This document shows positions 2,631-36,735 of a DNA stretch of 64,000 nucleotides, in pieces. The stretch's first letter is position 1, and the number at the start of each line of letters is the position of its first letter. This stretch comes from Nonomuraea soli (GTDB lineage Bacteria > Actinomycetota > Actinomycetes > Streptosporangiales > Streptosporangiaceae), in assembly GCF_013761175.1 (NCBI RefSeq), contig NZ_JACDUR010000002.1:626816-690815 (forward strand), given 5' to 3'. The translations under genes and the position numbers were made by a program. Under the pieces are notes generated by a model. That model saw only the letters and a program-made list of their open reading frames with translations, searched no databases and was not told the DNA's origin.

Positions 2631-2634
2631 CTTC

Positions 2635-9144: not shown

Positions 9145-9174
9145 GCCGTACGGCCGGCGCTGTGTTCTGCGGCG

Positions 9175-10443: not shown

Positions 10444-10451
10444 GGGGGCTC

Positions 10452-10643
10452 CTAGACGATCTCGATGGAGCGCTCGGGACAGTTGGCGACCGCCAGCCGG
10501 GCCGTACGCTCCAGCCCGTCGGGCACCTCGCCGGCGGCCAGGACCCTGCCGTAGCCCTCGTCGTCCTCACCGAACAGCTCGGAGGCGAGGTCGTAGCAGC
10601 GGCCGTGGCCCTGGCATCGTTCGCTGTCGATGCGCACTTTCAT
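10452..10643 (-). CDS. 3Fe-4S-type ferredoxin
   Basis: A 63-residue ferredoxin with cysteines at 10, 16 and 55 (CQGHGRC and NCP). The spacing leaves only three ligands, as in the single-cluster 3Fe-4S ferredoxins that feed P450s. The start ATG overlaps the stop of the TetR gene by four bases and has GGAG seven bases before it. It should pass electrons to the P450 encoded just downstream. No ferredoxin reductase gene is nearby. Confidence 0.93.
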   Translation of the reverse strand: MKVRIDSERCQGHGRCYDLASELFGEDDEGYGRVLAAGEVPDGLERTARLAVANCPERSIEIV

Positions 10644-20545: not shown

Positions 20546-21655
20546 TCATCGCGGCGGCTTCACCAGCCCGCCAAGCGTCAGATCGGCCTTCTCTCCGGGC
20601 TCGTCCCGTGCGACCAGCCCGGAGAGGTCGATCCCGGCGGAGCCGAGCGCGCGCCCGAGCGGGTTGAGCGGCTCCAGCAGCGGCTCGCACTGCGAAGGCG
20701 GCGTGCCGAGCGAGTAGGCCAGCGAGCACAACCACATCGCCATGTCGTCGGTCTGGCCGTTGAGATCGATCCGCGCCCGGAACGTCCCCGATCGCGGATC
20801 GTAGGCGTTGCTCGCGTTGTTGATCGCCAGCGGCGCCGTACTCAGAAAGGCCTCGATCGAACGGCGATGCCTGGCCAGCAGCCCCGTGATCCTCGACAGA
20901 TCCTTCACGTTCGCCCTGATCTCACCACGGTTGTCCTCGACGAACCCGGCCACCCGCGTCAGCGTGCCCGACAGGGCCACCAGCATGGCGCGCAACTCCT
21001 CGCGATCGCCCTCGAGCTGCCCCGACACCGCGGCCAGATCTCCCATGAACCGGCGGATCCCGGCGTCGTCGCGCGCCATCGTCTCGGTGATCGCCGCCAG
21101 GTTGCGCACGGTCTGCCCGAACTCGTCCCGCCCGGCTGTCAGCGCCTCCGCCGCCAGCGCGAGCCCTTGAACGGTCTCGGCGGCCTTGCCTCCCTGGCCC
21201 TCGAACGTCTCGGCCGAAACCCCCAGCAACCCGGCGAGCGCCCCGCCACTGCCCGGCCCCAGCGCCCGCGCCAGCTCGTCGAAGGCGGCCATCGCCTCGT
21301 CGATCTCCACCGGCACCCGGGTCCGCCTGACCGTTCCGCCGTCGGCCAGCACCGGCCCCGAGGTGTACGGCGGAGCCAGCTGCACGTAACGGTCGGCCAC
21401 CACGGACCTGGCCACCAGCACCGCCTCGGCATCGGCGGGCACCTTGCCGTCGTACTCCATCACGACCCGCACCCGCGTCCCCATCGGCGCCACCTCGGCC
21501 ACCCGGCCCACCTTCACGCCGAGCACCCGCACGTCGGAGCCCGGATACAGGCCCACCGCACTGTCGAACCAGGCCGTCGCCCGCGTGGCGTCGTGACCCG
21601 GCAGCAGCAGGAATCCGGCTGCCAGGGCGAGCAGGGCGACGATCGAGCGCTTCAT
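20546..21655 (-). CDS. orphan MCE-family protein (MlaD domain)
   Basis: A 369-residue protein with an N-terminal membrane anchor (MKRSIVALLALAAGFLLLPG) and an MCE/MlaD domain at about residues 35-110 (VGLYPGSDVRVLGVKVGRV and VARSVVADRYVQL). An alpha-helical stretch up to about residue 290 follows, which in this family forms a tunnel for lipids. A disulfide is possible between the two late cysteines. Actinobacterial Mce proteins normally occur as six genes with two YrbE permeases; none of those are present here. It is divergent from an acyl-CoA dehydrogenase gene. Confidence 0.85.
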   Translation of the reverse strand: MKRSIVALLALAAGFLLLPGHDATRATAWFDSAVGLYPGSDVRVLGVKVGRVAEVAPMGTRVRVVMEYDGKVPADAEAVLVARSVVADRYVQLAPPYTSGPVLADGGTVRRTRVPVEIDEAMAAFDELARALGPGSGGALAGLLGVSAETFEGQGGKAAETVQGLALAAEALTAGRDEFGQTVRNLAAITETMARDDAGIRRFMGDLAAVSGQLEGDREELRAMLVALSGTLTRVAGFVEDNRGEIRANVKDLSRITGLLARHRRSIEAFLSTAPLAINNASNAYDPRSGTFRARIDLNGQTDDMAMWLCSLAYSLGTPPSQCEPLLEPLNPLGRALGSAGIDLSGLVARDEPGEKADLTLGGLVKPPR

Positions 21656-21697
21656 GAGTGACGGCCATGTTACTCACAGCAAGGCTTCTCCGGGGCT

Positions 21698-21732
21698 CCT
21701 ACCGGCCGGTAGGGTGTTACCCGAAGTAACAC
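21698..21732. promoter_or_regulatory. two adjacent inverted repeats between MCE and acyl-CoA dehydrogenase genes
   Basis: CCTACCGGCCGGTAGG (21698-21713) is a perfect 16-base palindrome. Directly after it, GTGTTAC-CCGAA-GTAACAC (21714-21732) has perfect 7-base arms. Both lie 15-50 bases upstream of the dehydrogenase start and could bind one or two repressors. No regulator gene is adjacent. Confidence 0.6.
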
Positions 21733-21747
21733 GTGAGGAGTCCCCCC

Positions 21748-22956
21748 ATGACCGGCTTCAACCCGGAACTCAGCGCCGACGTCATCGAGGTCCGCGATTG
21801 GGTGCGCACCTTCGCCCGCGACGTGATCCGCCCCGCCGGCGCCGAATGGGACGAACGCGAAGAGACCCCGTGGCCCGTCATCCAGGAAGCGGCCAAGATC
21901 GGGCTCTACTCGCTCGACTTCTTCGCCACCCAGTGGTTCGAGCCCTCGGGCCTGGCGCTGCCGGTCGCCTTCGAGGAGATCTTCTGGGGCGACGCCGGGA
22001 TCGGCCTGTCCATCGTCGGCACCGGCCTGGCCGCCGCGGCCCTGTCCGCGAACGGCACCAACGAGCAGATGGGGGAGTGGCTGCCGCGCATGTTCGGCAC
22101 CCCCGACGACGTGAAGCTCGGAGCCTTCTGCGCCTCGGAACCCGACTCCGGATCGGATGTCGGCGCCATCCGGACGCGTGCCGTACGAGACGGCTCCGAC
22201 TGGGTGCTCAACGGCGTCAAGACCTGGGCCACCAACGGCGGCATCGCCGAGGTCCACGTGGTCGTGGCCTCGGTCGACCCGTCGCTCGGCACCCGCGGGC
22301 AGGCGACCTTCGTCATCCCGCCCGGCACGCCCGGACTCTCGATGGGACAGAAGTTCCGCAAACACGGCATCCGCGCCTCCCACACGGCCGAGGTCGTCCT
22401 CGAAGACGTCCGGGTGCCCGAATCATGCCTGCTCGGCGGCCCCGACAAGCTCGAAGCACGCCTCGCCCGCGCCCGCGCCGGCGAACGCACCGGCCACCAG
22501 GCGGCCATGCGCACCTTCGAGACCACCCGCCCCTCCGTCGCCGCCATGGCCGTCGGCATCGCCCGCGCCGCCTTCGAGTACGCCCGCGACTACGCCAGGG
22601 AGCGCGAGCAGTTCGGCCGCAAGATCGGCGAGAACCAGGCCATCGCCTTCCTCCTGGCCGACATGGCGACGCGCGTGGACGTGGCACGGCTGCTGACGTG
22701 GCGGGCGGCCTGGATGGCGCGCAACGGGCGGCAGTTCGACCAGGCGGAGGGGTCGATGTCGAAGCTGGTGGCGGGGGAGACGGCGGTGTGGGTGACGGAG
22801 CAGGCTGTGCAGATCCTGGGTGGGGCGGGGTATACGCGGGAGCATCCGGTGGAGAGGTTTCATCGGGATGCGAAGATTTACACCATTTTCGAGGGGACGT
22901 CGGAGATTCAGCGGTTGATCATCGGGCGTGCGGTCACCGGGCTGCAGGTTCGCTGA
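21748..22956 (+). CDS. acyl-CoA dehydrogenase
   Basis: A 402-residue FAD enzyme that forms 2-enoyl-CoA from acyl-CoA. The substrate-side motif is LGAFCASEPDSGSD, the FAD segment is WVLNGVKTWATNGG, and the C-terminal TIFEGTSEIQRLIIGRA carries the catalytic Glu of the short-chain class. The ATG is preceded by GAGGAG at seven bases. Third codon positions become less G/C-rich near its end, coinciding with the boundary of the next region. Its partner redox protein (ETF) is not in the window. Confidence 0.93.
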   Translation: MTGFNPELSADVIEVRDWVRTFARDVIRPAGAEWDEREETPWPVIQEAAKIGLYSLDFFATQWFEPSGLALPVAFEEIFWGDAGIGLSIVGTGLAAAALSANGTNEQMGEWLPRMFGTPDDVKLGAFCASEPDSGSDVGAIRTRAVRDGSDWVLNGVKTWATNGGIAEVHVVVASVDPSLGTRGQATFVIPPGTPGLSMGQKFRKHGIRASHTAEVVLEDVRVPESCLLGGPDKLEARLARARAGERTGHQAAMRTFETTRPSVAAMAVGIARAAFEYARDYAREREQFGRKIGENQAIAFLLADMATRVDVARLLTWRAAWMARNGRQFDQAEGSMSKLVAGETAVWVTEQAVQILGGAGYTREHPVERFHRDAKIYTIFEGTSEIQRLIIGRAVTGLQVR

Positions 22957-23178
22957 AGATGTCCGTTTTCCGGAAGGCGTCTTTGAAGTTCTGGTCCGTG
23001 GCTGGTCCGTGACTGTCACGGGTGGGGAAGGCTCGGGGTCCGGAGCCGCCCGGCGTGTGACGACAGAGAGTGACAGGGGTGGCCTACCGTGTACCGGGGC
23101 TGAGTCCCAGGCTCGTAGACGGGTTGGACGGGTCATATCGGGTCGAAGAGGCCGATTGGGGCATGGAACGATGGGCGT

Positions 23179-24714
23179 GTGAGGGGCATCAAGCAAGGGT
23201 TCAAGCAGGTCAACGCGCCCGATGATCTGCTTGTTGACTCGATCGCACGGCTGGTCCTGCCGAGTGCCCGAGGGCACCGCTACGCCAGCGACGACCTGGC
23301 TCGCGCCTTGTTCAGCGTGGTCTCCGATGCTGCGCCGGCAGGGGAGGCTCTCGATGTCCTGTCGGCGGCGGGGCCACGCCTGTGGATCGAGCTGGACGCG
23401 GCGATGCGACCGTGGCTGTTCGAATATGGCGATCCGCGTATCACGCGTGCGCCCGCCGTACACGAGATGTCCAACCCGCTCGCGGTCGCGCTCGCGGCTT
23501 GTTCGACCGACGGTCGCGTGCGGGAGAAGGCGGTCGGGCATCCGCTCATGATCTCGGATGCGCGCCTGGCGTCCGTCCTGGCTGTCCGGGCCGTTGACTG
23601 GGCGCCAGCCGTACAGCGCAAGGCACTGAAGGTGCTGTCGGAGGTCCTGGCTCGACCCGACGCGGCTGTGCTGGAGGCGGTGGTGCCGGTGACGGTGCGG
23701 CTCGCGGACCGGCGGCGCGCCGATGAAGCTGTGAAGCTGATCCGGCAGGCGCTGCTGCGGGCCGACGACGAGACGCTGAGCGCCGTACGGCGATGCGAAG
23801 ACCTGCGCGGGCGGCGGTTCGCCTTCGAGGTGTCTCTTGCCGGTGGACGGATGGATGAGCGGCAGCTCGCCGACGCGGCGCTGGGCGAGTCCGACACCGT
23901 CTCCCGGGCCCGGTGCGCCGAGGCGCTGGCCGAGCGGGCGATCGTCGACAACCGGCCGGAACTGGTCGAGGAACTCCTGGGGGCAGGTTCGGCGCGGGTG
24001 CGCGTGCAGGCGATGACGACTTTGGTACGGCTGGGCCGCGCCGAGGCAGGACCTCGCTTTCTGGCCGATTCGGCGTCCATGACGCGGCTGATCGCGCAGT
24101 GGGCGGTTCGCCAAGCGGGCGATGACCCGGCTGAGCGCTACCGGCGGCAGTTGGCGTCACCTCCGGGCCTGGGCGCACGAGGGCTGCTGGCCGGGCTCGG
24201 CGACTGTGGCTCGACCGCGGATGCCGATCTGGTGCTGCCGTATCTGCGTGACCCGAGGCCGCGGGTCCGGGCGGAGGCGGTGCGCACGCTGCGAAGGTTG
24301 GGGGCGCAGACGGACCTCAGCGGGCTGCTGGAGGATCCGGCGCCGGTGGTGGTCCGCCACGTCGTCGACGCGGTGCGCGCGGCCGGGCCGGGAGTGCCGG
24401 TGGAGCGGCTGTGGGTCCTGCTCGGGCCGGACCGGCCCTCTCATGTACGGCAGGCCGCGCACCGGCTGCTCGTCGCCCGTGACGTGTGGACCCGGATCCG
24501 GGCGGACCTTTCCCTGGCCACCGACGAGGACGAGGTGCTGAGGCGGCGCGCGCGCACCGATCTGGATGTCTGGCGGGTGCGAGACTCGGCGACCACTTAC
24601 CAAAGGTGCTCTGATGAGCAGCGGATTGGGCTGCTCGATCTGCTGGAACGCGCTGAGCCGGCGGTGGAGGAGCGTACGGCGCGCGCACTACGCTGGCGGT
24701 TGTCTGGGTCCTGA
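23179..24714 (+). CDS. HEAT-repeat-like helical protein, unknown function
   Basis: A 511-residue protein made of repeated helical pairs. Units such as DPRPRVRAEAVRTLRRLGAQ and DPAPVVVRHVVDAVRAAG near residues 350-400 are HEAT/PBS-lyase-like, and the N-terminal part has looser repeats. There is no enzyme motif, signal peptide or membrane helix, so it is probably a cytoplasmic scaffold. It starts at GTG. Codons ending in T or A are more common than in genes on either side, which suggests acquisition by transfer. The next gene starts 34 bases later. Confidence 0.7.
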   Translation: MRGIKQGFKQVNAPDDLLVDSIARLVLPSARGHRYASDDLARALFSVVSDAAPAGEALDVLSAAGPRLWIELDAAMRPWLFEYGDPRITRAPAVHEMSNPLAVALAACSTDGRVREKAVGHPLMISDARLASVLAVRAVDWAPAVQRKALKVLSEVLARPDAAVLEAVVPVTVRLADRRRADEAVKLIRQALLRADDETLSAVRRCEDLRGRRFAFEVSLAGGRMDERQLADAALGESDTVSRARCAEALAERAIVDNRPELVEELLGAGSARVRVQAMTTLVRLGRAEAGPRFLADSASMTRLIAQWAVRQAGDDPAERYRRQLASPPGLGARGLLAGLGDCGSTADADLVLPYLRDPRPRVRAEAVRTLRRLGAQTDLSGLLEDPAPVVVRHVVDAVRAAGPGVPVERLWVLLGPDRPSHVRQAAHRLLVARDVWTRIRADLSLATDEDEVLRRRARTDLDVWRVRDSATTYQRCSDEQRIGLLDLLERAEPAVEERTARALRWRLSGS

Positions 24715-24748
24715 TCGCCTCTGAACTCAACACGGATAGGCTTCCACC

Positions 24749-25462
24749 GTGCGATCGGCGATCGAACTCCGGGAACGCTGGCTTGAGACCGTTCCCCTGA
24801 TTCTGGTGCGCGCGGGCATGTACGCCTGTGACGGCCGGGAGATGGAGACGGTGAGTCGGACTCTCCTGGAGAACCTCTGCTTCGTTGATGAGCGGGAGGA
24901 CGAGTGCGCCGCCGTCAGTCGGATGCTCGGCGCTCGGTATGGAAAGTACGGCGTTCAGGGTCCGTTCGCGGCGATGTTCGGGGCCGGCAGCAGATGCGTT
25001 GAGGAGGTGGCCTCGGTCTACGCCGAGCAGTTCCACCGGCTTGGATTTCTCCAGGTGACGCGCAGGCTTGACGCGGGCCCTTGGGCAGACCTGCTCGGTA
25101 TGGTTCAGAACCGGTGGGCGGGGCGGGATCTCCGGCTCAGCGAGATCCAAGGCTCCTTCGGGACACCGGGGCTCATAGTCGGCAAGCGCATCCTCTGTTA
25201 CGTGTCGGCCAAGGGCGACTGGGCGTTCTTCGACTGCTGGGACGACCCTCCGAAGCGTTATGTTGCGGGCGAGGGAACCTACGAGTCCCTCGGGGAGGAC
25301 GATCCGCTGGTCCGGTCGATCCGCATTCCGGCCGCCGATTTCGAGAGCGGCCTCGTCCTCACCCTGTACGGCAAGGTCCTGAGGTGGGGAACCGGCTGGT
25401 GGATCCACCAGCCGAGCACTGACGATCCTTCGACCGAACTGGCCCCAACGAAACGGGACTGA
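24749..25462 (+). CDS. conserved-looking protein of unknown function
   Basis: A 237-residue soluble protein beginning MRSAIELRERWLETVPLILV. The first half is helical (VSRTLLENLCFVDEREDE), and the second half looks beta-rich (IVGKRILCYVSAKGDWAFFDCWDD, here in two overlapping parts). I see no catalytic motif and recognise no family. It follows the HEAT-repeat gene by 34 bases and is convergent with the Lon-WD40 gene. Confidence 0.55.
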   Translation: MRSAIELRERWLETVPLILVRAGMYACDGREMETVSRTLLENLCFVDEREDECAAVSRMLGARYGKYGVQGPFAAMFGAGSRCVEEVASVYAEQFHRLGFLQVTRRLDAGPWADLLGMVQNRWAGRDLRLSEIQGSFGTPGLIVGKRILCYVSAKGDWAFFDCWDDPPKRYVAGEGTYESLGEDDPLVRSIRIPAADFESGLVLTLYGKVLRWGTGWWIHQPSTDDPSTELAPTKRD

Positions 25463-25477
25463 AGAACCTCCTCCCTG

Positions 25478-25496
25478 GGACGCGCGCAACGCGTCC
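25478..25496. terminator. hairpin between convergent genes
   Basis: GGACGCG and CGCGTCC pair perfectly around CGCAA, 16 bases past the stop of the plus-strand gene and 45 bases past that of the minus-strand gene. ACCTCCTC upstream and GAGGAGGT downstream could pair around it to extend the stem. It may end both transcripts. Confidence 0.45.
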
Positions 25497-25540
25497 ATCG
25501 GGCGGCAGCTCGTCGTCGGGTGAGGAGGTGGGCCTCAGAC

Positions 25541-28500
25541 TCAGGCCGGGCAGGACGTCGAGTCGGTTTCCCGCGTCAATGCGCAGATGGCGCGAAGGGG
25601 ATCATCGGGGATGTTCAGGCGCCAGATCTCCACGCCGGAATCGGTGGCGACCGCCAACTGTTCGCCCGTGGGGCTGAAGGCCAGGCCGGTGACGCCGCCC
25701 GGCACGCGGAGCGGAGGAGCCAGCAGCCCGCCGTATTCGACGTTCCAGACATGCACCTCGCCGTTGCTGGTTCCGGCGGCCAGCATCCGCGCGTCGGAAC
25801 TGAACGCGAGGTGATAGATCGGGGACGTGGTGACCACGAAGTCTCGCAGACGTCGGTGGGTGCCGGCATCCCAGATGCCGACGCGCCCGGTCTGGCCCTC
25901 GGCTGCGGCCACCAGTTCGCCGTCGTCGCTGACATCGACGTCGGAGACGCGGGACCATCCTGTCTTCAGGATCGCGCCAGGCCTTTCCGGTTCGCGAGTC
26001 GTCCTGAGTTCGACGGTGCCGGAATGTGCCAGCGCCAGGGTCTCGCCGCCTACTGCCAGGCCGAGGATTCCTTTGCCGAACGGCTTGGTCAGGGGTTGGG
26101 CGCTGGCGGCATCCCATATCTGCGCCTGTCCGCTGCCACCGGTCGCGATGATCTTGCCGTCCTGGCTGTAGGCGAGGTCTCTGTAGATCGCGGAGGTGGC
26201 AGGTGAGACCGCCTTCACCGCGCCGTCCGACCATAGCCGGAGGTTGTCCTTCCGGCCGGTGGTGGCCAGCGTGCGCCCGTCGGGACTGACGGCCACGGCC
26301 CTGACCTGCTCCGGATGAACATACGACGTGTGGGTTCCAGCGGGCAGATCCCACACGTGGACCTCGTTGCCGTCGGCAACGGCTAATCGCCCATCTGGGT
26401 GGTAGGTCACAGCTGGCTGGTTGTGCCGGGTAGGCAGCAGTTTTCCCTCCGGCTGCCAGGAGGCCGTATCCCACAGCCGCACGGTTCCCCCCGCGACAGC
26501 TGTAGCCAGAGTTCGGCCGTCAGGGGCGAGCGCCACAGCGGTGAGGTATCGCCCCTGGCCGTCGAACGCCGCGCCGCGCTGCCGTAAGGTCTCCATATCC
26601 CACAGCCGGGCTGTCATGTCGGTGCTCGACGAGGCCAGAGTCTTACCGTCGGCGCTGAAGGCCAGACCCGTGACGCTTCGGTCGTGACGGAACGTGGCGA
26701 GGGTTTTCCGGGTGCCGACGTCCCATACCGTGATCGCATAGTCGGTCCCGCCGGCTGCCAGCGTGGCACCGTCTGGGGCGAAGGTCACCGCGTTGACGAT
26801 CGAGTTGCCTTCGGTCAACGTCTTGATCAGCCGGCGTGTGCCGAGGTCCCACAGCTGAACCTTGCCGTCGTTGCCGCCGGTGGCCAGGGTGTCGCCGCGA
26901 GGGCTGAGCGCGACGATGGTGGTCTGCCCGGTCGGCTTCGTCCTCAGCGGTGGCATGGACAGGCGGCGCCGCTCAACATCCCACAGGCGAACTGTCCCCT
27001 CCTCGGTCACGGTGGCGAGGCTTCGGCCGTCACGGCTGAAGGACACCGACAGAACCGGGCTGTCGTGCCGTAGCGGCTCTGTCAGCGGACGCAGGGTCGT
27101 GGGGTCGAGGAGCACCGCGCTCTTGTCGGAGAGGGCGACCGCCAGTCTGGCGCCGTCCGCGCTGAACGACAGCCCACGAACCTTGGCGCCGGGGAAGCGC
27201 GTGGTGACTGCGTTGTCGCCGGTATGCGAATCCCACAGTTCGAGCACGCCGCTTCTTTCCCCTGCGGTCGCGAGGCGGGTGTTGTCCGGGCTGAACGCGA
27301 TGACGATCTTCGAGTCGTCGACTGGCAAGACCGCCCGGAGCCGAGTGGTGATCGTCCGGAGCATTCGGTATCGGGCCGCGGGTGTTTGCGTGAGGGCCCA
27401 GGACCGCGCGGCCAGGTGCCCGGCGAGCACAGGATCCCGCTGCCATGCGTCGTCGCTCTGGCGCAACAGTGCGGCCGCCCCAGCGGCGACGACGTTGTCG
27501 TGGAGGACATAGGCGCCGCCGCTGGAGGCCAGCAGTACGAGCGACGCTGTAAGTGTCTTCCATGTGTGGGGGCGGCGGGCCTGACGGGCCGCGTGCTGCC
27601 AGGTTCGTGCCTTTCGCACCTTGAGTCGTGGCGGTGTAAGCGTCTTCACCGCAGCGAAGTCCTGCTCTGGGACGACAAGGCGCCGGATGCCCGCAGCGGC
27701 CGTGACCTTCTGCTCATACCCTCCGACGGACGCGAGGGTGCCATCCTCTTTGAGGTCTCCGATGATCGCCACGTGCGAGCGTGGGTTGAACCACGTCAAC
27801 GTGTGCAGCCGACGGTGCCTTCGCTCCAGTTCGTTCAGGACGAAGGCGAATGCCGTGCTCAAGGAGCCGCCGACGATACGTGGCATGGGTCCGGCCACCA
27901 GCTCGCTGGTCTGCGACTCGATCGTCCACAGCACCTGTCCGCGCAGCTTTCCTCCCGCGTGCCGCCATGCGATTTCCAGTCCGCGCCGGAACGCTTTGTC
28001 GGCGGAGAAGAACGTCATCTGCGATGGATCGGGGGCTAGGCCTGGTGGGCGGTCAGGGATCAGGCGCGCGGAGAGCCGGCCCTGCAGGCCGCTGTTGTCC
28101 TGCCCGTTGTTGTTGATCGCGAACAGGACGCGTATCGCGGCCTCCGCCGCGGTGCCAGGATCTTCGTTGGACAGCCAGGCCAACGCGGCGTCGGTGCCCG
28201 CCCGCCCGGGAATGGGGGTGGCGTACGCGCGCTGCTGCCAGTCCTGCCACGCCTCCATGCGCTGCTCGCGCGCGCTTGGGTCAGATATGGACAAGGCCAG
28301 GCCGGCGAACCGGCGGGCCGCGATGATCGCGGATGGCACCGGCGTCTCGCCCTCCAAGAAACGCGGATAGAAGACGTGCGGCAGCTGCCCGAGGAGATCT
28401 TCGAGGAGGGTTCCGCCCTTCTCGATCCGGGTGAGAAGCTCCACATCCCCGGAACCGACGCACGTCTTGACGAATGTCGTGAACGGCGCGCCGGATCCCA

Positions 28501-28570
28501 CGAGATCGACAGCGTGGCAATCGACGGGAACAGACCCCTCGATGAGCTTTTTGATGTCTTCGTGGTTCAC
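25541..28570 (-). CDS. Lon-like (S16) domain / transmembrane / WD40 repeat protein
   Basis: A 1009-residue protein starting at GTG. Residues 1-190 are a helical region I do not recognise. Residues about 190-305 resemble the Lon proteolytic domain: GGSLSTAFAF aligns with the DGPSAG nucleophile region (Ser236), and IIGDLKEDGTLASVGGYEQK aligns with the Lon segment carrying the catalytic lysine (Lys288). A single membrane helix lies near 338-358. From about 400 to the end are some 14 WD40 blades (LAFSADGKTLASSSTDMTAR style), enough for two propellers. There is no AAA+ or STAND NTPase domain, unlike Lon or most bacterial WD40 signalling proteins. It overlaps the upstream 411-residue gene by GTGA. 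Confidence 0.75.
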   Translation of the reverse strand: MNHEDIKKLIEGSVPVDCHAVDLVGSGAPFTTFVKTCVGSGDVELLTRIEKGGTLLEDLLGQLPHVFYPRFLEGETPVPSAIIAARRFAGLALSISDPSAREQRMEAWQDWQQRAYATPIPGRAGTDAALAWLSNEDPGTAAEAAIRVLFAINNNGQDNSGLQGRLSARLIPDRPPGLAPDPSQMTFFSADKAFRRGLEIAWRHAGGKLRGQVLWTIESQTSELVAGPMPRIVGGSLSTAFAFVLNELERRHRRLHTLTWFNPRSHVAIIGDLKEDGTLASVGGYEQKVTAAAGIRRLVVPEQDFAAVKTLTPPRLKVRKARTWQHAARQARRPHTWKTLTASLVLLASSGGAYVLHDNVVAAGAAALLRQSDDAWQRDPVLAGHLAARSWALTQTPAARYRMLRTITTRLRAVLPVDDSKIVIAFSPDNTRLATAGERSGVLELWDSHTGDNAVTTRFPGAKVRGLSFSADGARLAVALSDKSAVLLDPTTLRPLTEPLRHDSPVLSVSFSRDGRSLATVTEEGTVRLWDVERRRLSMPPLRTKPTGQTTIVALSPRGDTLATGGNDGKVQLWDLGTRRLIKTLTEGNSIVNAVTFAPDGATLAAGGTDYAITVWDVGTRKTLATFRHDRSVTGLAFSADGKTLASSSTDMTARLWDMETLRQRGAAFDGQGRYLTAVALAPDGRTLATAVAGGTVRLWDTASWQPEGKLLPTRHNQPAVTYHPDGRLAVADGNEVHVWDLPAGTHTSYVHPEQVRAVAVSPDGRTLATTGRKDNLRLWSDGAVKAVSPATSAIYRDLAYSQDGKIIATGGSGQAQIWDAASAQPLTKPFGKGILGLAVGGETLALAHSGTVELRTTREPERPGAILKTGWSRVSDVDVSDDGELVAAAEGQTGRVGIWDAGTHRRLRDFVVTTSPIYHLAFSSDARMLAAGTSNGEVHVWNVEYGGLLAPPLRVPGGVTGLAFSPTGEQLAVATDSGVEIWRLNIPDDPLRAICALTRETDSTSCPA

Positions 28571-29802
28571 AGGACATCCCCAGAGAGACGGTCCAGCAGA
28601 GCGTGCAGAGCATGATCGTGGGACATCATGGCGGCGAGCTCGCGCCAGCGCCGCAACGCGGGGAGCGGCAGATTCGCAGGTAAGGAGGGTATGAGGTGCT
28701 CCTCGCGCAAGTCGGCCACCTCGGAGGCCCCGATAGCGGGCATGGTCACATCCACGTCGAACTCGTCGGACGGAAGCCGGACAGGGAGCATGCCGGAGAA
28801 CTCGTCCGCACGCTGTTCCAGCGGTATGAGGAAGGTGCGGGGGCCTACGTCCACGCGCATGACCACGACGCCGTACACCTCGGCGACGGAACCGGCGCGC
28901 CCAGGATCGAGCCGCGCGGCCACACTCAGCTCCAGAACTCCACTGCTCGTGACCACGGCCTCGACCTCGAAGGGAGGCTTACGCAGCCGGTCGGGTCTGC
29001 GACGCACGCCGAGCGTGTCGGCGGCGGGAGCAAGCATGGTCTGCACCCGCGTCGGCTCCTCGCCCGGGTCGGATGACTCCATCAGCTTCCGCGCGCCCCG
29101 CGAGGCGAACGGTGTCAGCAACGGATCACGGCCAGGAAGATCTCGAAGGAGGAGGGACATCGCCTCACGGGTGGAAGAGGGAACCCGGGCCGCCTCCAGC
29201 TCGGAGATCCGGCCGCACAACGCGGTGGCGCCTACCCGCGCGGCTATGGCGTCGCCGAAACGCAGGCCGGCCGCGAGCTGATCCAGCGCCGCGGTGAAGC
29301 GGGACCCGGCGGGGGCGAACCAGTGCCGTAGCAAGGTGTCGGGAACAGACGCAGGCCCTCTCAGCGTCGCCCGTATCTGTCCTGCCAACCGGGTCACCAG
29401 CTCCCACGGAAGCACATGGAAGAGGTGCGGAGGCGGGTCGCCCTCTGCCACGAGCCGCGCCAGCAGCAGGTATCGCAGCGGCCGCTCCTCTCCGGCCAAC
29501 ACGGAGATCGACTCCGCGTCCCAGGGCGCATGCGGCCACATGTCCTCCAGCCGCCGCAGCACGCGCACCCCTTCCCGCGTAATCCGAATCGGCGTGGCCG
29601 TCTCGTCCACCTCGACGAGCGTCGTGCCGGTGCGCTCATGCACAAGCACGAGTGCCCCGTCCGCGCGGTCGTGCCGCCATCCGTGCGCGAAGTACGGCAG
29701 ATGCCGCGCATCCGCCCTCTCATCCCCGTCGTTGACGTTGGCATGCAGGTCAGTGGATGGTCTCACCCAATTGCTGAGCGGCCTAGCCGGCATGACGGCC
29801 AC
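28567..29802 (-). CDS. unknown protein, middle gene of the Lon-WD40 operon
   Basis: A 411-residue soluble protein with no motif I can name. The N-terminal 130 residues contain a beta-hairpin-rich part (GALVLVHERTGTTLVEVD), the middle is helical, and residues about 280-370 look like a beta-sandwich (FEVEAVVTSSGVLELSVAAR). The start overlaps the nucleotidyltransferase gene by 20 bases (a Met three codons in is an alternative), and the stop overlaps the Lon-WD40 gene by four bases. Such coupling implies that the three products act together. Confidence 0.6.
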   Translation of the reverse strand: MAVMPARPLSNWVRPSTDLHANVNDGDERADARHLPYFAHGWRHDRADGALVLVHERTGTTLVEVDETATPIRITREGVRVLRRLEDMWPHAPWDAESISVLAGEERPLRYLLLARLVAEGDPPPHLFHVLPWELVTRLAGQIRATLRGPASVPDTLLRHWFAPAGSRFTAALDQLAAGLRFGDAIAARVGATALCGRISELEAARVPSSTREAMSLLLRDLPGRDPLLTPFASRGARKLMESSDPGEEPTRVQTMLAPAADTLGVRRRPDRLRKPPFEVEAVVTSSGVLELSVAARLDPGRAGSVAEVYGVVVMRVDVGPRTFLIPLEQRADEFSGMLPVRLPSDEFDVDVTMPAIGASEVADLREEHLIPSLPANLPLPALRRWRELAAMMSHDHALHALLDRLSGDVL

Positions 29803-30847
29803 CCCATCGCACCGCGTGGATCAGTGTCCCGGCCACGGTCCCCAGCCGTTGCACCGCTCGCATCGCTGCTGGTGCCTGCTCCTCGGGGATGCATTTCCCC
29901 CAGAAGCCAAGAAGACTTCTCCGCATGTCGGCGGGCAGGTCACAGGCCAGGTCGACAAGATGGCGATCTACCCACGCGGCCGCCTCCGACATGTCAGCGT
30001 CCGGTGAGCGGACGGCGAACTTCACCGTTCGAATCACGACCTTTGCGCACTCGAGAGGGTCACCACCCGTGTAGACGGGCGCCAGTGTCCGTGGCTTGGC
30101 GCGAAGATGCCGCACCCCCCGGCCGGACGGATCGATCAGGACGTGCCTGCGTAAGTCGTAGTAGAGGCCATTGATCGTCAGATCACGCGTGCCGACGTCG
30201 TCGAGTAGATCGCCGCCCGAGGCGGGAAAGTGGAACCCGTGCTGCGACAGCGCCTTGTACTCGATGATGCGCTCGGTATCGGGCATACCGCCCATGACGG
30301 AAAGGACGCGACCGGGTGAGAGGTGAGGGCGATGGTCTCCAAGACCGTTGATGGCAAGCATGTCAGGAGCCAGGCTGTGAAGCTCACCGGGCAGCATCGT
30401 GCCGGCGAAGTCCAGGTCGTTGACCGGCGCCGCCGGGTCGGCCACAAGATCCCGAACGGCTCCGCCGATCAGCCATATGGCGCAGTCCCGGCGGGTGAAC
30501 TCCTCAACCAGTGATCCCACGAACCGGCCCGGCCCGGGACGCAGGCCGATGGCTCTGCTCACCGCCGCGCGAAGCCCTGGCGTGATGTCGTCCGCATCCG
30601 TCACATCCCTCGCGGCAAGCCGGTGGGCGACCTGCGGACCGCACCGCCTGATGCCCGGATGCTCGCGCGCCGGGATCGGCCGCGTCGGGATCTGTGGGCT
30701 GACCTCATCGCCCGCCAAGAGCAGTCTGTCGTCGGGAACGGGACCGGTAGTAGTGGCGAACCCCGCCACCGGCGCCCCACCCACATGGTCGCCCTTGACC
30801 AGCGGACCGTCGACCTGCCGCTCATAGAGCATGCGTAAATCGGCCAT
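29783..30847 (-). CDS. truncated class II CCA-type nucleotidyltransferase
   Basis: A 354-residue protein with a Pol-beta-superfamily head. The motif GGAVRD lies at residues 128-133, the metal-binding Asp pair at 144 and 146 (NDLDF), and RDLTINGLYYDL at 221-232 matches the RRDFTINA motif of tRNA CCA-adding enzymes and poly(A) polymerases. It has a 100-residue N-terminal extension and only about 120 residues after the head, so the tRNA-binding body and tail domains are mostly missing. A housekeeping role is therefore unlikely. It heads the three-gene operon and is divergent from a putative regulator. Confidence 0.75.
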   Translation of the reverse strand: MADLRMLYERQVDGPLVKGDHVGGAPVAGFATTTGPVPDDRLLLAGDEVSPQIPTRPIPAREHPGIRRCGPQVAHRLAARDVTDADDITPGLRAAVSRAIGLRPGPGRFVGSLVEEFTRRDCAIWLIGGAVRDLVADPAAPVNDLDFAGTMLPGELHSLAPDMLAINGLGDHRPHLSPGRVLSVMGGMPDTERIIEYKALSQHGFHFPASGGDLLDDVGTRDLTINGLYYDLRRHVLIDPSGRGVRHLRAKPRTLAPVYTGGDPLECAKVVIRTVKFAVRSPDADMSEAAAWVDRHLVDLACDLPADMRRSLLGFWGKCIPEEQAPAAMRAVQRLGTVAGTLIHAVRWGGRHAG

Positions 30848-30953
30848 GCGCTGAGCTCACCTGCCCTAAGTCTCATGTTTCGTCCGAATGGCACGACTGG
30901 CCGGCGAGCAGGGCGGCTATCCTGCCGACACGGCCGTGAAGGGCCCATAGAAG

Positions 30954-30963
30954 CAGACGTCTG
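30954..30963. promoter_or_regulatory. 10-bp palindrome in the divergent region of the Lon-WD40 module
   Basis: CAGACGTCTG is a perfect palindrome 41 bases before the GTG start of the putative regulator and 107 bases from the nucleotidyltransferase start. It is the only clear symmetric element in this 147-base gap, but ten bases is short. Confidence 0.3.
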
Positions 30964-30994
30964 TCGCTGATAGATCGCATCCAGAGGTGCCATC

Positions 30995-31885
30995 GTGGCA
31001 AGGGAGCCCGTCCCCACCGGGGCAGAGCACGCCGGGCAGCTACTGCGAGACCTGCTGCTCAACCGGCCGGATTACCGTCGGCGCTGGCAGCGCCTTCAGC
31101 AGCGGCGTACAGCGTCGAATCTCCCCAGCAATCGCGCAGTCGCCAACGTCGTGGCTGCTCACCTGGTCGAGAAGGGACTCCTGCCGGACGCGATCGAGGA
31201 TCCCGGAAGGATGTTGAAGGACCGCATCGGTCGCGCCCTGGCCGGCGTGATCGTCAGCCCCGACACCATCACCATGCTCGTAGACGCCTTCGAGATGAGC
31301 CACGAGGACGAAAGCGCTCTGAGGGAAGCGCTCACAAACCCGCCACCAGCGGGGATTCGAGCCCCACAGCCGCTCCCCGTGCGACAACGCCACCGCACGC
31401 TGATGCTCTTCGAACACCGCACCATCGACGCCCATGGGCGGGCCGTCGCTCACCACTCCACGAAAACCATCCGTGCCTGCGAGGACAGGATCGACTGCTA
31501 TCCGTGCTTCCTGTCGCCGAGAACCGCCACTGTCGAGACCATCCACGAGGTCCGCATGGAACCGCCGATGATGAAGATCCTTCTACCGAGACCTTTGCTG
31601 ACGGGCGAGGACACCGTCGTGGAATATCGCCGTACCTTTCTCCCGCAAGGGGAGCCCGACACGGAATACCGCAGGGTCTTCCACGCCCGCGCCGAAAGCG
31701 TCAGCATCATGGTGCAGTTCCACGGCGAGCGGCTGCCGCGGTACACGTGGTGGTCGACCTGGGACCACTACCGTGCCGGCACTCTCGTCGCCGAGGAGCC
31801 TGTGGCGCTGGACAGCCTTCATCGCGTGCACCGTTACTTCCCTGCACTGGAGAACGTGGCGACAGGCTTCCGCTGGGCATGGTGA
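30995..31885 (+). CDS. putative helix-turn-helix regulator with unknown C-terminal domain
   Basis: A 296-residue protein starting at GTG with AGAGG before it. Residues about 15-110 are helical, with a pattern (AVANVVAAHLVEKG, then VSPDTITMLVDAFEMSHED) like the all-helical XRE-type modules found beside actinobacterial signalling genes. Residues about 130-296 form a beta-rich domain (RHRTLMLFEHRTIDAHGR, YTWWSTWDHYRAGTLV) with no family I know. It is divergent from the nucleotidyltransferase operon, which suggests that it controls or senses for it. Confidence 0.55.
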   Translation: MAREPVPTGAEHAGQLLRDLLLNRPDYRRRWQRLQQRRTASNLPSNRAVANVVAAHLVEKGLLPDAIEDPGRMLKDRIGRALAGVIVSPDTITMLVDAFEMSHEDESALREALTNPPPAGIRAPQPLPVRQRHRTLMLFEHRTIDAHGRAVAHHSTKTIRACEDRIDCYPCFLSPRTATVETIHEVRMEPPMMKILLPRPLLTGEDTVVEYRRTFLPQGEPDTEYRRVFHARAESVSIMVQFHGERLPRYTWWSTWDHYRAGTLVAEEPVALDSLHRVHRYFPALENVATGFRWAW

Positions 31886-32119
31886 TTCCACTAACCGCCA
31901 CGGGCGTGGTGCTGCTGTTGTCGGCGCGATCGCCAGCGTCTGCGTCGTGGTGGGAGAGTAACGGTCGTAGGCGACGTAATCTCTCGCGCCTTGGCCGCTT
32001 TCGTTGCATAGGGCGCTTCGTCGGCGCCGAGTCCTTCGTCGGCTATGACCGCGCAGGTCGTCCCGGGGCGCGGCCCCGTGCCAGCGGTGTACAACGTCCA
32101 CACAGGGATGCACGACCAA

Positions 32120-33391
32120 TCACGATCCTTGGCCTTCGCCCACGGGCGTCGGCTCGGGGGTGCCGCGCAGCCGGTCCAGATAGCGCATGACCGGAGTGGC
32201 GGTGATGCCGTGCAGGACGACCGAGGCCAGCACCGTGAAAGCGACCACCGCCCACACCTCCTCTGCCGGGACGCCGAAGTCGGCGTGCCCCAGCGCGTAG
32301 GCCAGGTAGTACATCGAGCCGATGCCGCGGATGCCGAACACCGAGATGACGGCCCGCTCACGGGGACCGGCGGGGCCGCGCAGCTGGGCCAGCCAGCCGG
32401 TCAGCGGCCGGATGACGAGCAGCAGCAGGAGCGCGACCGCGATGCCGCGCCAGGTGAGCGCGGCCAGTCCGCCTGTCGCGATGAAGCCGCCGAGCAGGAG
32501 CAGGAGCCAGGCGGTGAACAGCCGCTCGATCTGCTCGATGAAGCCGTGCAGGATGCCGTTGTAGCCGTGGTCGCGCTCGGCGTTGCGGATCGTGCACGCG
32601 GTCACGAAGACCGCGATGAAGCCGTAGCCCTGCACGAGTTCGGTCAGCCCGTAGGCGAGGAAGGTGGCGGCGAGGGCGACGAAACCGTCACGGTGCTCGG
32701 CCAGGCGCAGGTTCTCGGTGCTGGCGTGGAAGAACAGCCTGCCGAGCAGGCGTCCGATCACCAGCCCGCCGACCACTCCTGCGGCCACCCGGTAGAGCAC
32801 ATCGGTCAGCGCCCATTCCCCTGTCCAGGCCAGGCCTCCCACGGTGGCGAGCGCGATGGCGGCGTAGACCACGGGGAAGGCCAGGCCGTCGTTCAGCCCG
32901 GCCTCGGAGGTCAGGGCGAAGCGGACTTCGTCGTCGGCGTTCTCGGCGTCCACGGGCTCTCCGACCTGGACGTCGGAGGCCAGGACCGGGTCGGTGGGAG
33001 CGAGAACCGCACCGAGCAGCAGGGCCGCGGCCGGAGGCCAGCCCAGCAGCCAGAACGCCAGCAGCGCGACCGCGGTGATGGTCAGCGGCATCGTCCAGCC
33101 GAGCAGCCGCCAGGTCGAGGACCAGCGGCGCAGGCCGATGCGACGGTTGAGCGCCAGGCCCGCGCCCATGAGTGAGATGACCACGCAGATCTCGGTGACG
33201 TGCTCGAGGGCGCTCCGGTGGGCGATGGGGTCGGGCTCGGCCAGCGGCACCGGCAGCCAGAACAGCAGCATCCCGCCGATCAGGCAGGCCAGGGGCAGGG
33301 AGAAGGGCAGACGGCGCAGCACCCCGGGCAGTACTGCGGCCGAGATGGCGCCCACACCGGCCAGGGCGAAGACGAGATCGACATTGGTCAC
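32120..33391 (-). CDS. CPA1-family monovalent cation/proton antiporter
   Basis: A 423-residue membrane protein with 12 or so helices. The ion-binding region reads LAPTDPVLASDVQV, and the second conserved segment is TSEAGLNDGLAFPVV with the ND pair typical of Na+/H+ or K+/H+ antiporters. A late FGIRGIGSMYYLAYALG segment also matches the family. It exchanges cytoplasmic Na+ or K+ for protons. I start at GTG 33391 because GGAGGG lies five bases upstream; the frame extends farther without a better start. Confidence 0.9.
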   Translation of the reverse strand: MTNVDLVFALAGVGAISAAVLPGVLRRLPFSLPLACLIGGMLLFWLPVPLAEPDPIAHRSALEHVTEICVVISLMGAGLALNRRIGLRRWSSTWRLLGWTMPLTITAVALLAFWLLGWPPAAALLLGAVLAPTDPVLASDVQVGEPVDAENADDEVRFALTSEAGLNDGLAFPVVYAAIALATVGGLAWTGEWALTDVLYRVAAGVVGGLVIGRLLGRLFFHASTENLRLAEHRDGFVALAATFLAYGLTELVQGYGFIAVFVTACTIRNAERDHGYNGILHGFIEQIERLFTAWLLLLLGGFIATGGLAALTWRGIAVALLLLLVIRPLTGWLAQLRGPAGPRERAVISVFGIRGIGSMYYLAYALGHADFGVPAEEVWAVVAFTVLASVVLHGITATPVMRYLDRLRGTPEPTPVGEGQGS

Positions 33392-33754
33392 TCGTCCCTC
33401 CTGCCCCGCTGACCAGAAAAGTGCAGGAAAACGGCCAAGTCGCTTGAAAGTCGGGCGAAAGGAGACCGGGCTGGTGTTCAGTATGGTGGACATGCATTCG
33501 GCCCAAGCCCTGATCCGAGACGCGGCGCTGGAGCTGACGGATCATCGGCGGAACGCCGTCCTCCGTCCAGCTGTGTGCCCCTCGAGGAGGGGCTCGCGGA
33601 GATCCCCCGGCTGGGCATGTGGCCGGGTCGCCGGACTCTTGCACTGAGCAACGGCCTGTTAAACTCAGGGCCCTGGTGTGCCGGGAAGACTGGTCGGCGT
33701 CCGACCTCACCGTGCCTGAAAGCGCGGTGGCAACGCTACCGAGGACGCCATCAC
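33392..33754. other. intergenic region between antiporter and STAS genes
   Basis: These 363 bases separate divergent genes and should hold both promoters. I see no convincing gene, repeat or RNA. One plus-strand frame is continuous with the STAS gene from 33575, but it lacks a ribosome-binding site and has the composition of chance coding. Confidence 0.4.
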
Positions 33755-34102
33755 ATGGACACGCTCACCATCACCATCGACCGACACGGCTACATCGTGA
33801 TCATCCGCTTACGGGGCGAGCTGGACATGGTCACCGCGCCGAGCCTGCGCGACTGCCTCACCCTGGCGCTGATCGAATTCGAGTCGCCCATGGTGGTCAT
33901 CGACGCCGCCGAGCTCACCTTCTGCGACAGCAGCGGGCTTTCCGCCCTGCTCAGCGGCACCTCGTTGACCGAGGCGGCCGGCGGGAGCCTCGTGTTGAGC
34001 GCGGTGAACGGGCATCTGCGGCGGCTCCTTCATCTCACCGGCCTGTCGGAGCGCTTCCAGATCTTCCCGACCGTGCAGGAGGCTGTCGCTCACCTGGGAT
34101 GA
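33755..34102 (+). CDS. STAS-domain anti-sigma factor antagonist
   Basis: A 115-residue single STAS domain. The phosphorylation loop is FCDSSGLSAL with serines 59 and 60, as in SpoIIAA and BldG. Such proteins, when unphosphorylated, bind an anti-sigma kinase and free a sigma factor. I start at MDTLTITIDRHG with GAGGA nine bases upstream. No kinase gene is adjacent; the nearest is at 43862 beside a second STAS gene. Confidence 0.9.
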   Translation: MDTLTITIDRHGYIVIIRLRGELDMVTAPSLRDCLTLALIEFESPMVVIDAAELTFCDSSGLSALLSGTSLTEAAGGSLVLSAVNGHLRRLLHLTGLSERFQIFPTVQEAVAHLG

Positions 34103-34267
34103 GATGCCCGCCGCCCTGTGGCTCAAGGGCCTGGCCGCCGGCAATCCCACCTGGAGATGGCAGCCGCGTCATCTGGTGCGCGGGCCGCGGCGCTGTTAAC
34201 GTCGTCAATGGAGCGCCGGGAAGCCTGGTCGGCAACGTCATACCCGACCGACCTCAGGGAGGCGCCC

Positions 34268-35148
<881 letters not shown>

Positions 35149-35152
<4 letters not shown>

Positions 35153-36735
35153 CCGGCACGATGGCGCTGGTACGGCTGGCGCTGCGCCGTGACCGCTCCC
35201 TGCTGCCGGGCTGGATCCTGGTCATCGTGGGTGTCGTGGCAGGCACCGCCTCCGCCATCGCCGAGCTGTATCCGGGCATGGACGACCGGCTCGCCCTCGG
35301 CCTCACGATCGGCTCCACCCCGGCCCTGCAGGCGATCACCGGGCCGGTCTACGACCCCGCCTCGGTCGGCGGGCTGACGGCCTGGCGCGCGACCACGATC
35401 GCGGCTGTCCTGGCCGCGCTCATGAGCCTGCTGCTGGTCACCCGGCACACCCGCGCCGAGGAGGAGAGCGGCAGGGCCGAGCTGGTCGGCGCGTGCGCGG
35501 TGGGACGGCACGCCTTCCCCGCCGCCGCGCTCGTCGTCGCCGGCGGCGCCAACCTGCTCATCGCCGCGCTGATCACCGCGGCTCTGACCGCGCAGGGCCT
35601 GCCGGTCTCCGGCGCGCTCGCCTTCGGGCTGGCGATCGCCGGCACGGGATGGATCTTCGCCGGGGTCGCGGCGGTCACCGCGCAGCTCACCGAGCACGCC
35701 CGCACCGCCAACGGCCTCGCGGCAGCCGTACTCGGCGCGGCGTTCCTGCTGCGCGCCGCGGGTGACGCGGGCGGGTGGGAGGCGCTGTCGTGGGCGTCGC
35801 CGCTGGGCTGGGCCCAGCGGGTGCGGGCCTTCGCCGACGAACGCTGGTGGGTGATCGGGCTCGCGCTGCTGACCGCGGTGACGCTGGTCCTCGTCGCGGC
35901 AGCGCTGATCAGGCGGCGGGACCTGGGCTCCGGCGTGCTGCCGCCCCGCACCGGTCCCGCCGACGCCCCGCCGTACCTGAGCAGCGCACTGGGCCTGGCC
36001 TGGCGGCTGCACCGTGGCGGCGTCCTCGGCTGGGCGGCCGGCTTCGCCGTCATGGGCGCCCTGTTCGGGGCCCTGGCGCACAGCGCGGGGCAGATCCTGG
36101 GAGGCAACCCGCAGCTGGCCGCCATCCTGGAACGGCTGGGCGGCGAGAGCACGCTGGTCGACACCTTCCTGGTGACCGTCTTGGGCATGATGGGGCTGGT
36201 CGCAGGGGCTTTCGCCGTCCAGGCCGTGCTGCGGCTCCAAGGCGAGGAGGCTGCCCTGCGCGCCGAACACGTGCTCAGCGCGGCCGTGACCCGCCCCCGA
36301 TGGGCCCTCGCCCACCTCCTCATGGCCTGGGCCGGAAGCGCGGCGGTCCTCGGCATGGGCGGCCTCGCGATCGGCGCAGCGCACGGCATCCGCACCGGCG
36401 AGCCGGGCCAGGTCATCCGGCTCGCCGCGGCGGCCTGGGTGCAGCTGCCCGCCGTGTGGGTGGCGGCCGGGCTGACCATGCTGCTGTACGGCCTGCTGCC
36501 GCGGCTCACCGCACTCGCCTGGGCCATGCTCCTGAGCTTCGCCCTCCTCGGACAGCTGGGCGAGGTGCTCCAGCTCCCTGAGTGGATGCAGCGCCTGTCG
36601 CCTTACTCGCATCTGCCGCAGGCGCCCGGAGGGGAGCTCGATCCAGCTCCGCTCATCTGGCTCGCCGTGCTCGCCCTGGTCCTGGCCGGAGTCGGTGTGG
36701 CCGCCTTCCGCCGTCGTGACCTGACGGGAGCCTGA
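35149..36735 (+). CDS. ABC exporter permease, polyketide-antibiotic exporter family
   Basis: A 528-residue membrane protein with about 12 helices in two similar halves, each opening with a basic segment and a long first helix ([18 protein letters not shown], then [18 protein letters not shown]). This duplicated layout marks the permeases annotated as exporters of polyketide antibiotics, such as TipA-region or tetronasin transporters. The start is GTG 35149 overlapping the ATPase stop, or the ATG four codons later. The frame is open far upstream but is only antisense-like there. Confidence 0.9.

Follow-up and report, generated by a model that had tools for sequence, protein, structure and literature searches.

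Four genes at positions 25541 to 31885 of a 64,000-nucleotide stretch of the 10-Mb Nonomuraea soli genome (the window; G000:C2:626816-690815) are read here as one functional module, a candidate system for nucleotide-triggered, membrane-anchored proteolysis of the conflict or signalling kind. We put the probability of this reading at roughly 0.45, slightly under even. Comparison between loci (L numbers, with G numbers for genomes) shows the linkage of a nucleotidyltransferase (NTase) gene to the adjoining middle gene, the division of the middle protein into two parts, a predicted Lon fold with a Ser/Lys pair that is followed by a helix and a propeller, the motifs of an NTase reduced to its head domain, and a DNA element at the divergent gene. 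The bipartite middle protein and the direct-repeat element are additions to a preliminary description of the window, which had been made from the sequence alone. The genes, with lengths in amino acids (aa), are as follows.

25541-28570, minus strand: LonWD, Lon-like protease/transmembrane/WD40 protein, 1009 aa
28567-29802, minus strand: middle gene, proposed adaptor, 411 aa
29783-30847, minus strand: NTase, CCA/PcnB-type nucleotidyltransferase with head domain only, 354 aa
30995-31885, plus strand: divergent gene, regulator-like protein, 296 aa

The three overlapping minus-strand genes and the divergent gene of the preliminary description are real, and their coordinates, strands and lengths were exact on recheck. 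As annotated, LonWD and the middle gene overlap by 4 bases and the middle and NTase genes by 20 bases, the latter overlap shrinking to 11 bases if translation of the middle gene begins at the residue-4 methionine kept in relatives.

Recurrence of the gene set

Among 59 relatives searched for the middle protein, three matched, the window's genome included, and a middle-gene profile run over 345 genomes of the order was positive in 12, from four of 70 genera. The NTase lies in the same cluster in ten of these 12 genomes; in nine it adjoins the middle gene, and in L021 the regulator gene stands between the two. Of 394 genomes sampled class-wide, three had module-grade NTase matches (E 4e-79 or better; G000, G098 and G573), with four further matches at E 1e-12 to 1e-14, and a phylum sample of 256 genomes contained only the window's own copy. 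G573, which stands outside the order, has the permuted arrangement LonWD-NTase-middle gene and is the sole middle-gene genome among 35 of its family. The Streptomyces megaplasmid NZ_CP109179.1 carries LonWD, a lipoprotein-like gene, the NTase gene, the middle gene and a SLATT gene, and the full module is also found in Acrocarpospora pleiomorpha (Streptosporangiaceae). In total, six genera from at least two orders have the gene set: four genera of the order searched, that of G573, and Streptomyces.

With each locus counted once (L019, from G063, matches L004 in contig and gene lengths and was merged with it), an NTase gene and a middle gene with its N-terminal half occur together at 12 loci, directly joined at 11 and with the regulator gene alone between them at L021. 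The divergent gene accompanies them at eight of the 12 (the window, L004, L005, L006, L020, L021, L024 and L025), and all four genes stood together in three loci of the first comparison. Flanking genes and gene order differ between loci, and the genes flanking the window module had no match within the first three loci compared. Measured at the gene joints, with some gene starts chosen by the analyst, the 4-base overlap of middle and Lon genes recurs at L004, L005, L006, L020, L021 and L024 as in the window, the NTase and middle genes overlap by 4 bases at L022, L023, L024 and L025, and they are separated by 5 bases in L036 and 1 base in L080. The third gene of L025 is cut by the contig end, and its visible codons resemble, by eye, the divergent Lon gene of L024.

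As the gene set recurs at other loci, the overlap of the genes is not a matter of chance. The occurrence of the regulator and Lon-transmembrane (TM)-WD40 families without other module genes would fit a set of unrelated neighbours that happen to overlap, but the NTase and middle genes share a cluster in all 12 loci with the N-half despite varied order and flanks, and the halves of the middle protein covary with the NTase and the Lon protein. Recurrence refutes such a reading for the NTase, middle and Lon genes, and we hold it to be extremely improbable. The preliminary description had proposed conserved synteny at unrelated positions as a check on the module, and this was found, in six genera with differing flanks. 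It had also held that homologues occurring singly would speak against a module; this is not the case for the NTase and middle genes and is partly so for the regulator and the Lon-TM-WD40 protein, the latter being found beside other partners too.

A phage origin was considered and rejected, as the middle protein had no match in phage records and 30 pattern matches in viral contigs included no confirmed relative. Five phage records match the NTase at E 4e-4 to 7e-4, each of them annotated as tRNA nucleotidyltransferase.

A nucleotidyltransferase reduced to its catalytic head

30095-30478, minus strand: catalytic head of the NTase, residues 124-251, with GGxxRD, DLD and RDxxxN motifs

The NTase contains the PolyA_pol head domain (PF01743) at E 3.7e-10, above the Pfam cut-off, and its family profile finds E. 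coli poly(A) polymerase I PcnB (3aqm) at E 4.9e-11, with CCA enzymes also among the best solved relatives. Residues G128, G129, R132, D133, D144, D146, R221, D222 and N226 do not vary among the 10 aligned sequences, and the NTases of L036 and L080 also have GG..RD, DLD and RD...N. Alignment to the solved enzymes covers essentially the head alone, preceded by an N-terminal extension of about 110 residues of unrecognised kind. The body, which binds RNA in CCA and PcnB enzymes, is not recognisable, and the truncated CCA-type nucleotidyltransferase of the preliminary description is in this respect confirmed. NCBIfam equivalogs score far below their cut-offs (PcnB 29.1 versus 305.65; CCA 15.8 versus 438.8), and in searches of Pfam, NCBIfam and PADLOC only PolyA_pol, CCA and PcnB models match up to E 1, with no PADLOC or CD-NTase model among them.

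Assignment of this protein as the housekeeping CCA enzyme was rejected, because a separate, ordinary CCA enzyme is encoded elsewhere in the genome (G000:C3:618244-619602, 776.9 bits, above cut-off).

CCA-adding and poly(A)-polymerase enzymes are regarded as makers of RNA tails, and an NTase of this kind could belong to a system of RNA repair or tail-making without signalling, in which it mends RNA ends and the protease provides quality control. The absence of a recognisable body or tail domain, the presence of the ordinary CCA enzyme and a sporadic spread unlike that of repair (12/345 in the order; 1/256 in the phylum sample, the window's own) all speak against this role, which we judge improbable.

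At L021, a pentapeptide-repeat gene (8991-11048) and the relocated NTase gene overlap at the end of the latter.

A middle protein in two parts

29080-29802, minus strand: N-half of the middle protein, residues 1-241, predicted small beta unit and helical bundle; goes with the NTase
28567-29079, minus strand: C-half of the middle protein, residues 242-411, predicted Ig-like beta-sandwich and helices; goes with the Lon protein

The 411-residue middle protein, called unrecognised in the preliminary description, has no Pfam, NCBIfam or PADLOC match. Comparison between loci shows it to be bipartite, each half following a different partner, NTase or protease. For this comparison, the core alignment of eight rows was cut at residue 241 and hidden Markov models (HMMs) of the two halves were scored on divergent loci. 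At L024 and L025, where the NTase scores 255 and 249 bits, the N-half scores 217 and 209 bits and the C-half is barely there (6.1 and 8.7 bits); the Lon protein of L024 is divergent, scoring 11.6 bits with the core profile. At L026 and L027, the C-half scores 94.5 and 73.3 bits alongside Lon proteins of 295 and 355 bits, the N-half is not kept (4.9 and -1.4 bits), and a search of these genomes for the module NTase found only frames of 501 and 534 aa at E 1.9e-8 and 2.2e-7. Both halves are present in the middle proteins of L036 and L080.

An AlphaFold2 model of the middle protein (predicted local distance difference test, pLDDT, 78.6; predicted template modelling score, pTM, 0.78) has a fold that agrees with the two-part division. 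It had no Foldseek match at E 0.001, and the best VIA match (Z 5.2) was a generic sandwich match at residues 269-362, with the remaining parts barely covered. Since the N-half tracks the NTase and the C-half tracks the Lon protease, the middle protein is probably an adaptor between the two. Such an adaptor predicts NTase binding by the N-half and protease binding by the C-half.

A toxin-antitoxin-like arrangement would offer a different account, in which the NTase acts as a toxin by tailing or capping tRNA or other RNA, the middle protein inhibits it, and the Lon-like protease frees it under stress by degrading the middle protein. Lon degrades antitoxins, the genes overlap, the NTase is without an RNA-binding body of its own, and the N-half goes with it as an antitoxin would. 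The middle protein is, however, longer than the NTase, and a plain antitoxin leaves unexplained a C-half that goes with the protease and persists without the module NTase. The membrane helix and propeller that follow the protease, and the CATRA and EAD1 genes near its relatives, count further against this account, and we consider it unlikely.

A Lon-like domain, a membrane helix and a propeller

27566-28147, minus strand: Lon proteolytic domain, residues 142-335, with putative dyad Ser236 (27863-27865) and Lys288 (27707-27709)
27500-27556, minus strand: membrane helix, residues ~339-357, weak in the window copy
25622-27301, minus strand: WD40 propeller region, then the C-terminal Cys pair Cys996 and Cys1007

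The preliminary description gave the third protein Lon-like, transmembrane and WD40 parts. The WD40 part is certain (Pfam, E 3.1e-69) and the Lon part is borne out by the predicted fold, whereas the transmembrane part is weak in the window copy and strong in relatives. Single-sequence HMMs only hint at Lon (Lon_C at E 0.008, 16.2 bits versus a cut-off of 21.1, and a weak NCBIfam LonB match below cut-off), and a profile of the N-terminal 400 residues finds Lon structures (1xhk, E 1.7e-4). In the predicted model of the protein (mean pLDDT 78.0, pTM 0.64), residues 1-134 are helical and are followed by the Lon domain and then the membrane helix. The fold of the Lon domain aligns to human LONP1 (6x27_D) with a VIA-align Z of 19.9 and a root-mean-square deviation of 2.1 over 163 residues, and Foldseek with the predicted model matches 3k1j at E 9.3e-9. 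Ser236 and Lys288 are invariant in two alignments (11/11 and 13/13 sequences), and the diverged third protein of L024 still has GGPSAGGAM and the lysine. The model and the alignments support the presence of a Lon (S16) proteolytic fold with a putative Ser/Lys dyad in the third protein. We saw no AAA+ motor, a feature of LonA and LonB, in the protein, the first 399 residues of which match Lon_C alone and the remainder WD40.

All 13 other proteins examined have a membrane helix after the Lon domain, with a best-segment hydropathy of 1.73-2.56. Lysine and arginine are richer before than after the helix in 11 of 14 proteins, and all 14 have a Cys pair, spaced by 11-30 residues, close to the propeller's end, with about 160 residues following it in L036. 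The helix, the K/R balance and the Cys pair therefore favour, without proof, a topology with the protease in the cytosol and the propeller outside.

At L024, a second gene (884-4093) stands in tandem after the divergent Lon gene; it encodes a membrane helix and a propeller and, as judged by eye, perhaps a degenerate Lon-like domain. A lipoprotein-like gene, secreted as judged by eye, stands directly after the Lon gene in L080 (7304-8926) and L021 (501-2012); that of L080 has a weak propeller-like Pfam match.

The divergent gene and its DNA element

30951-30980, plus strand: 30-bp operator-like element AAGCAGnnnnnTGTCGCwGnTnTGTCGCAt, a direct repeat with an 11-bp period

The divergent gene is real and recurrent, but the putative helix-turn-helix (HTH) of its product in the preliminary description received no confirmation from Pfam or profile comparison. 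The protein has no Pfam match, its N-terminal region is XRE-like by eye only, and its C-terminal domain is of no recognised family.

A conserved DNA site accompanies the regulator at its own promoter, with a putative role as operator. In the window, the element ends 14 bp before the regulator start, inside the divergent promoter region. Its left-one-out position weight matrix score is 33.3, compared with 10.0 for the next best site in the 64-kb window and 17.7 as the maximum over 20 single-base-shuffled windows. The five matrix loci have left-one-out scores of 25.8-35.9, and loci outside the matrix also score high (L004 34.7, L024 35.4 and L025 27.1). Across the eight regulator loci, the next-best site reaches at most 11.5, with the exception of a second site in L021 (18.0) that lies just before the relocated NTase, which stands apart from the middle gene in that locus. 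The element is found at the divergent gene in eight of eight module loci having a regulator gene, and the four module loci without one have no element in the stretch fetched (L022 7.6, L023 6.0, L036 8.2 and L080 9.6). In L026 and L027, the best-scoring sites (12.9 and 15.2) do not lie at the genes. The exact element core occurs in 19 of the 152 loci of the set (eight distinct places after merging repeats), all of which carry a regulator-family gene. The direct repeat offers a ready-made assay for the regulator.

Upstream of lone regulator genes, strong sites lie at L068 10066, L072 8960 (other strand) and L074 9580, and these lone homologues represent a family of possibly autoregulated actinobacterial proteins. 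In L065-L071, the regulator family stands alone beside genes that look by eye like those of amino-acid metabolism. In L073, where only half of a regulator gene is present, an exact core copy at 1236-1252 lies about 640 bases downstream from it and is a possible further target. In L022 (5605-6342) and L023 (10481-11218), where the regulator is absent, another gene diverges from the module on its upstream side; the L022 copy matches DUF7873, and the L023 copy is the same by eye.

Conflict-type genes in the neighbourhood

On the megaplasmid, the middle gene is followed by a SLATT_4 gene (97 bits versus a cut-off of 55), and SLATT is described as a predicted nucleotide-responsive pore (PMC7159879). 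An EAD8-trypsin gene precedes the L036 module. A class-wide search with the Lon profile at E 1e-6 matched 81 genomes, most of the listed matches covering only the membrane helix and the helical segment after it, in frames of about 1000-1500 residues, and a few covering the Lon domain. Six loci with related Lon-TM-WD40 proteins were fetched and some of their neighbours put to Pfam; CATRA-N/C (PF20269/PF20270) and EAD1 genes were found within about 1 kb of the related gene in three of the six (L140, L141 and L144), and a TIR gene lies about 5 kb from it in L143. The CATRA and EAD1 neighbours of related proteases therefore argue that this protease type belongs in the network of actinobacterial conflict systems, and they suggest that Lon can serve as the protease of CATRA-type loci. 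The resemblance to conflict or signalling systems noted in the preliminary description gains support from this company of SLATT, EAD8-trypsin and CATRA-EAD1 genes. Proteases of the same type near CATRA-EAD1 genes may also have a bearing on uncharacterised conflict systems of multicellular actinobacteria.

The protein topology can also be read as that of an envelope sensor without any involvement of phage, in which the propeller senses an extracytoplasmic signal, the Lon-like domain then induces the operon by cutting the divergent repressor, and the NTase only modifies a component, for instance by nucleotidylating the middle protein. The helix after the protease in 13/13 other copies, the K/R bias in 11/14, the C-terminal Cys pair, the lipoprotein-like genes (by eye) after the Lon gene in L021 and L080 and the operator-like element that accompanies the regulator are all in keeping with such a sensor. 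Four of the 12 full modules, however, have no regulator gene in the fetched stretch, and the SLATT, EAD8-trypsin and CATRA company indicates conflict systems. We regard the sensor as a doubtful explanation, of about the same standing as the toxin-antitoxin account.

Codon use and surroundings of the module

The G+C content of third codon positions (GC3) is 0.76-0.81 in the four module genes and 0.89-0.93 in nearby acyl-CoA dehydrogenase, antiporter and ABC genes. The relaxed codon use of the preliminary description thus holds against several nearby genes, but the adjoining HEAT, 237-aa and STAS genes are similarly low (0.82, 0.80 and 0.83), and because these genes share the low GC3 it is weak evidence and not specific to the module. 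The HEAT-repeat and 237-aa genes adjoin the module at 23179-25462 on the plus strand; the 237-aa gene, with GC3 as low as in the module, is rare in the genus (3/54 genomes, its own counted).

An Rfam search of window positions 21000-36000 gave no structured RNA above cut-offs, a repeat search of positions 24000-34000 gave short, diverged families only, and a sigma-70 promoter scan of the divergent region gave no match. A Na/H antiporter gene stands beside the module and is common in the genus (28/54). In 20 kb around the antiporter of four congeners, the antiporter alone was shared with the window, barring a single 243-base match (68-70% identity) to window positions 17492-17732 in two of the four. 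As these regions share almost nothing with the window, no empty site can be demonstrated.

Proposed mechanism

On a trigger, the NTase would transfer nucleotides, either to form a small signalling nucleotide or to modify a protein or RNA, and this event would be relayed by the middle protein to the membrane-anchored Lon-like protease. The protease would then cut a substrate in the cytosol, for which the regulator, housekeeping proteins and the middle protein are possible candidates, and this cleavage would set off a response that is either transcriptional or abortive. The divergent protein probably binds DNA and represses its own locus, silencing the genes by way of the TGTCGC direct repeat. 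The propeller, which probably lies outside, could act as a sensor or a docking site at the envelope. The role of the system may lie in conflict with phages or plasmids or in envelope-stress signalling.

Several observations weigh against this reading. No PADLOC model matched the NTase, middle protein or regulator, and the Lon-WD40 protein matches only HEAT-ARM_XIII (E 1.6e-21), over its repeats. L026 and L027 have only the middle C-half and the Lon protein, with no NTase or regulator found, and the divergent gene was not seen in the fetched stretch of L022, L023, L036 and L080. The SLATT and EAD8-trypsin genes occur at one locus each. In the window copy, the membrane helix has a best 19-residue mean hydropathy of 1.25, below the 1.6 threshold used, and the K/R balance includes one tie and two contrary cases. 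More distant homologues of the divergent protein also occur alone, and the match of this protein by hhalign to 14 HTH_31 domains of the same genome was not significant (probability 2.9%, E 0.015 over 27 columns); comparisons with other module parts gave E 0.33-0.65.

The DNA element has its own counterevidence. It was first picked by eye in divergent promoter regions, with a matrix taken from five loci, and its second repeat overlaps the annotated start codon in L005 and L021, while in L024 and L025 the element lies inside an annotated reading frame. An 18-base pattern with two mismatches allowed occurs once in the window versus 0.37 expected, and 32 of 100 dinucleotide shuffles also had one; the 30-base matrix is significant in the window against single-base shuffles, and the 18-base form alone is not. 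When a 20-base matrix built from all eight sites was scanned at ten regulator-only genes (leaving aside the weak matches L076-L078 and the half-gene L073), the site was strong at three (L074 27.6, L072 23.4 and L068 21.5), weak at three (8.4-9.1) and absent at four. The 99th percentile of 400 random 470-base stretches was 12.4, and their maximum, 27.6, equals the score of the L074 site.

More tentatively, the module may represent a class of nucleotide-triggered proteolysis in which the signal or marking enzyme was recruited from the CCA/poly(A)-polymerase family instead of from CD-NTases, Cas10 or GGDEF, and in which interchangeable membrane Lon proteases are wired to it via a two-part adaptor. 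If true, a body-less CCA/PcnB enzyme tied by an adaptor to a membrane protease would draw this enzyme family into signalling or immunity.

Comparison with known systems

The preliminary description knew of no system with this set of genes, and none was found in the literature searched, to which most subscription papers do not belong. The kind, nucleotide-coupled proteolytic signalling, is already known. In the main text of PMC8195603 and of PMC7159879, 'Lon' and 'CCA' are absent as whole words.

With CBASS, the module shares the pairing of a nucleotidyltransferase with an effector, and one locus has a SLATT gene, but its NTase matches no CD-NTase model and no CBASS model was matched. With CCA enzymes and PcnB, it shares an NTase head with GGxxRD, DLD and RDxxxN motifs; unlike them, it has no recognisable tRNA-binding body and has about 110 extra N-terminal residues. 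The frames matched over the membrane segment in the class-wide Lon search are a point of likeness to the actinobacterial STAND/trypsin/caspase-TM-WD40 proteins; where those have a STAND NTPase and trypsin or caspase, the module presumably has Lon.

The nearest worked example of a nucleotide-switched Lon protease, offered by analogy, is CalpL. CalpL, CalpT and CalpS form a type III CRISPR Lon protease system (PMC11417357, PMC12751052), in which a nucleotide signal activates the Lon protease and this cleaves an anti-sigma factor (PMC12751052). Like that system, the module would combine a Lon-type protease domain, nucleotide chemistry and transcription control in one locus. Unlike it, the module has a membrane helix and propeller after the protease domain, its nucleotide enzyme is of CCA/PcnB kind, and no sigma/anti-sigma pair was seen at the module. 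No SAVED domain was found on the Lon protein, the N-terminal 399 residues of which match Lon_C alone and the remainder, among the best 25 of 59 families, WD40.

CATRA systems have been called caspase-dependent ternary conflict systems (PMC8195603). Lon-TM-WD40 proteins related to that of the module sit near CATRA-N/C and EAD1 genes, but the window module itself has no CATRA-N/C or EAD Pfam match and has an NTase and a bipartite middle protein instead. Membership in CBASS, Calp or CATRA was rejected on the features tested, as the CD-NTase, SAVED and CATRA-N/C features were not found. Most likely, the module is akin to both CalpL and CATRA and a member of neither.

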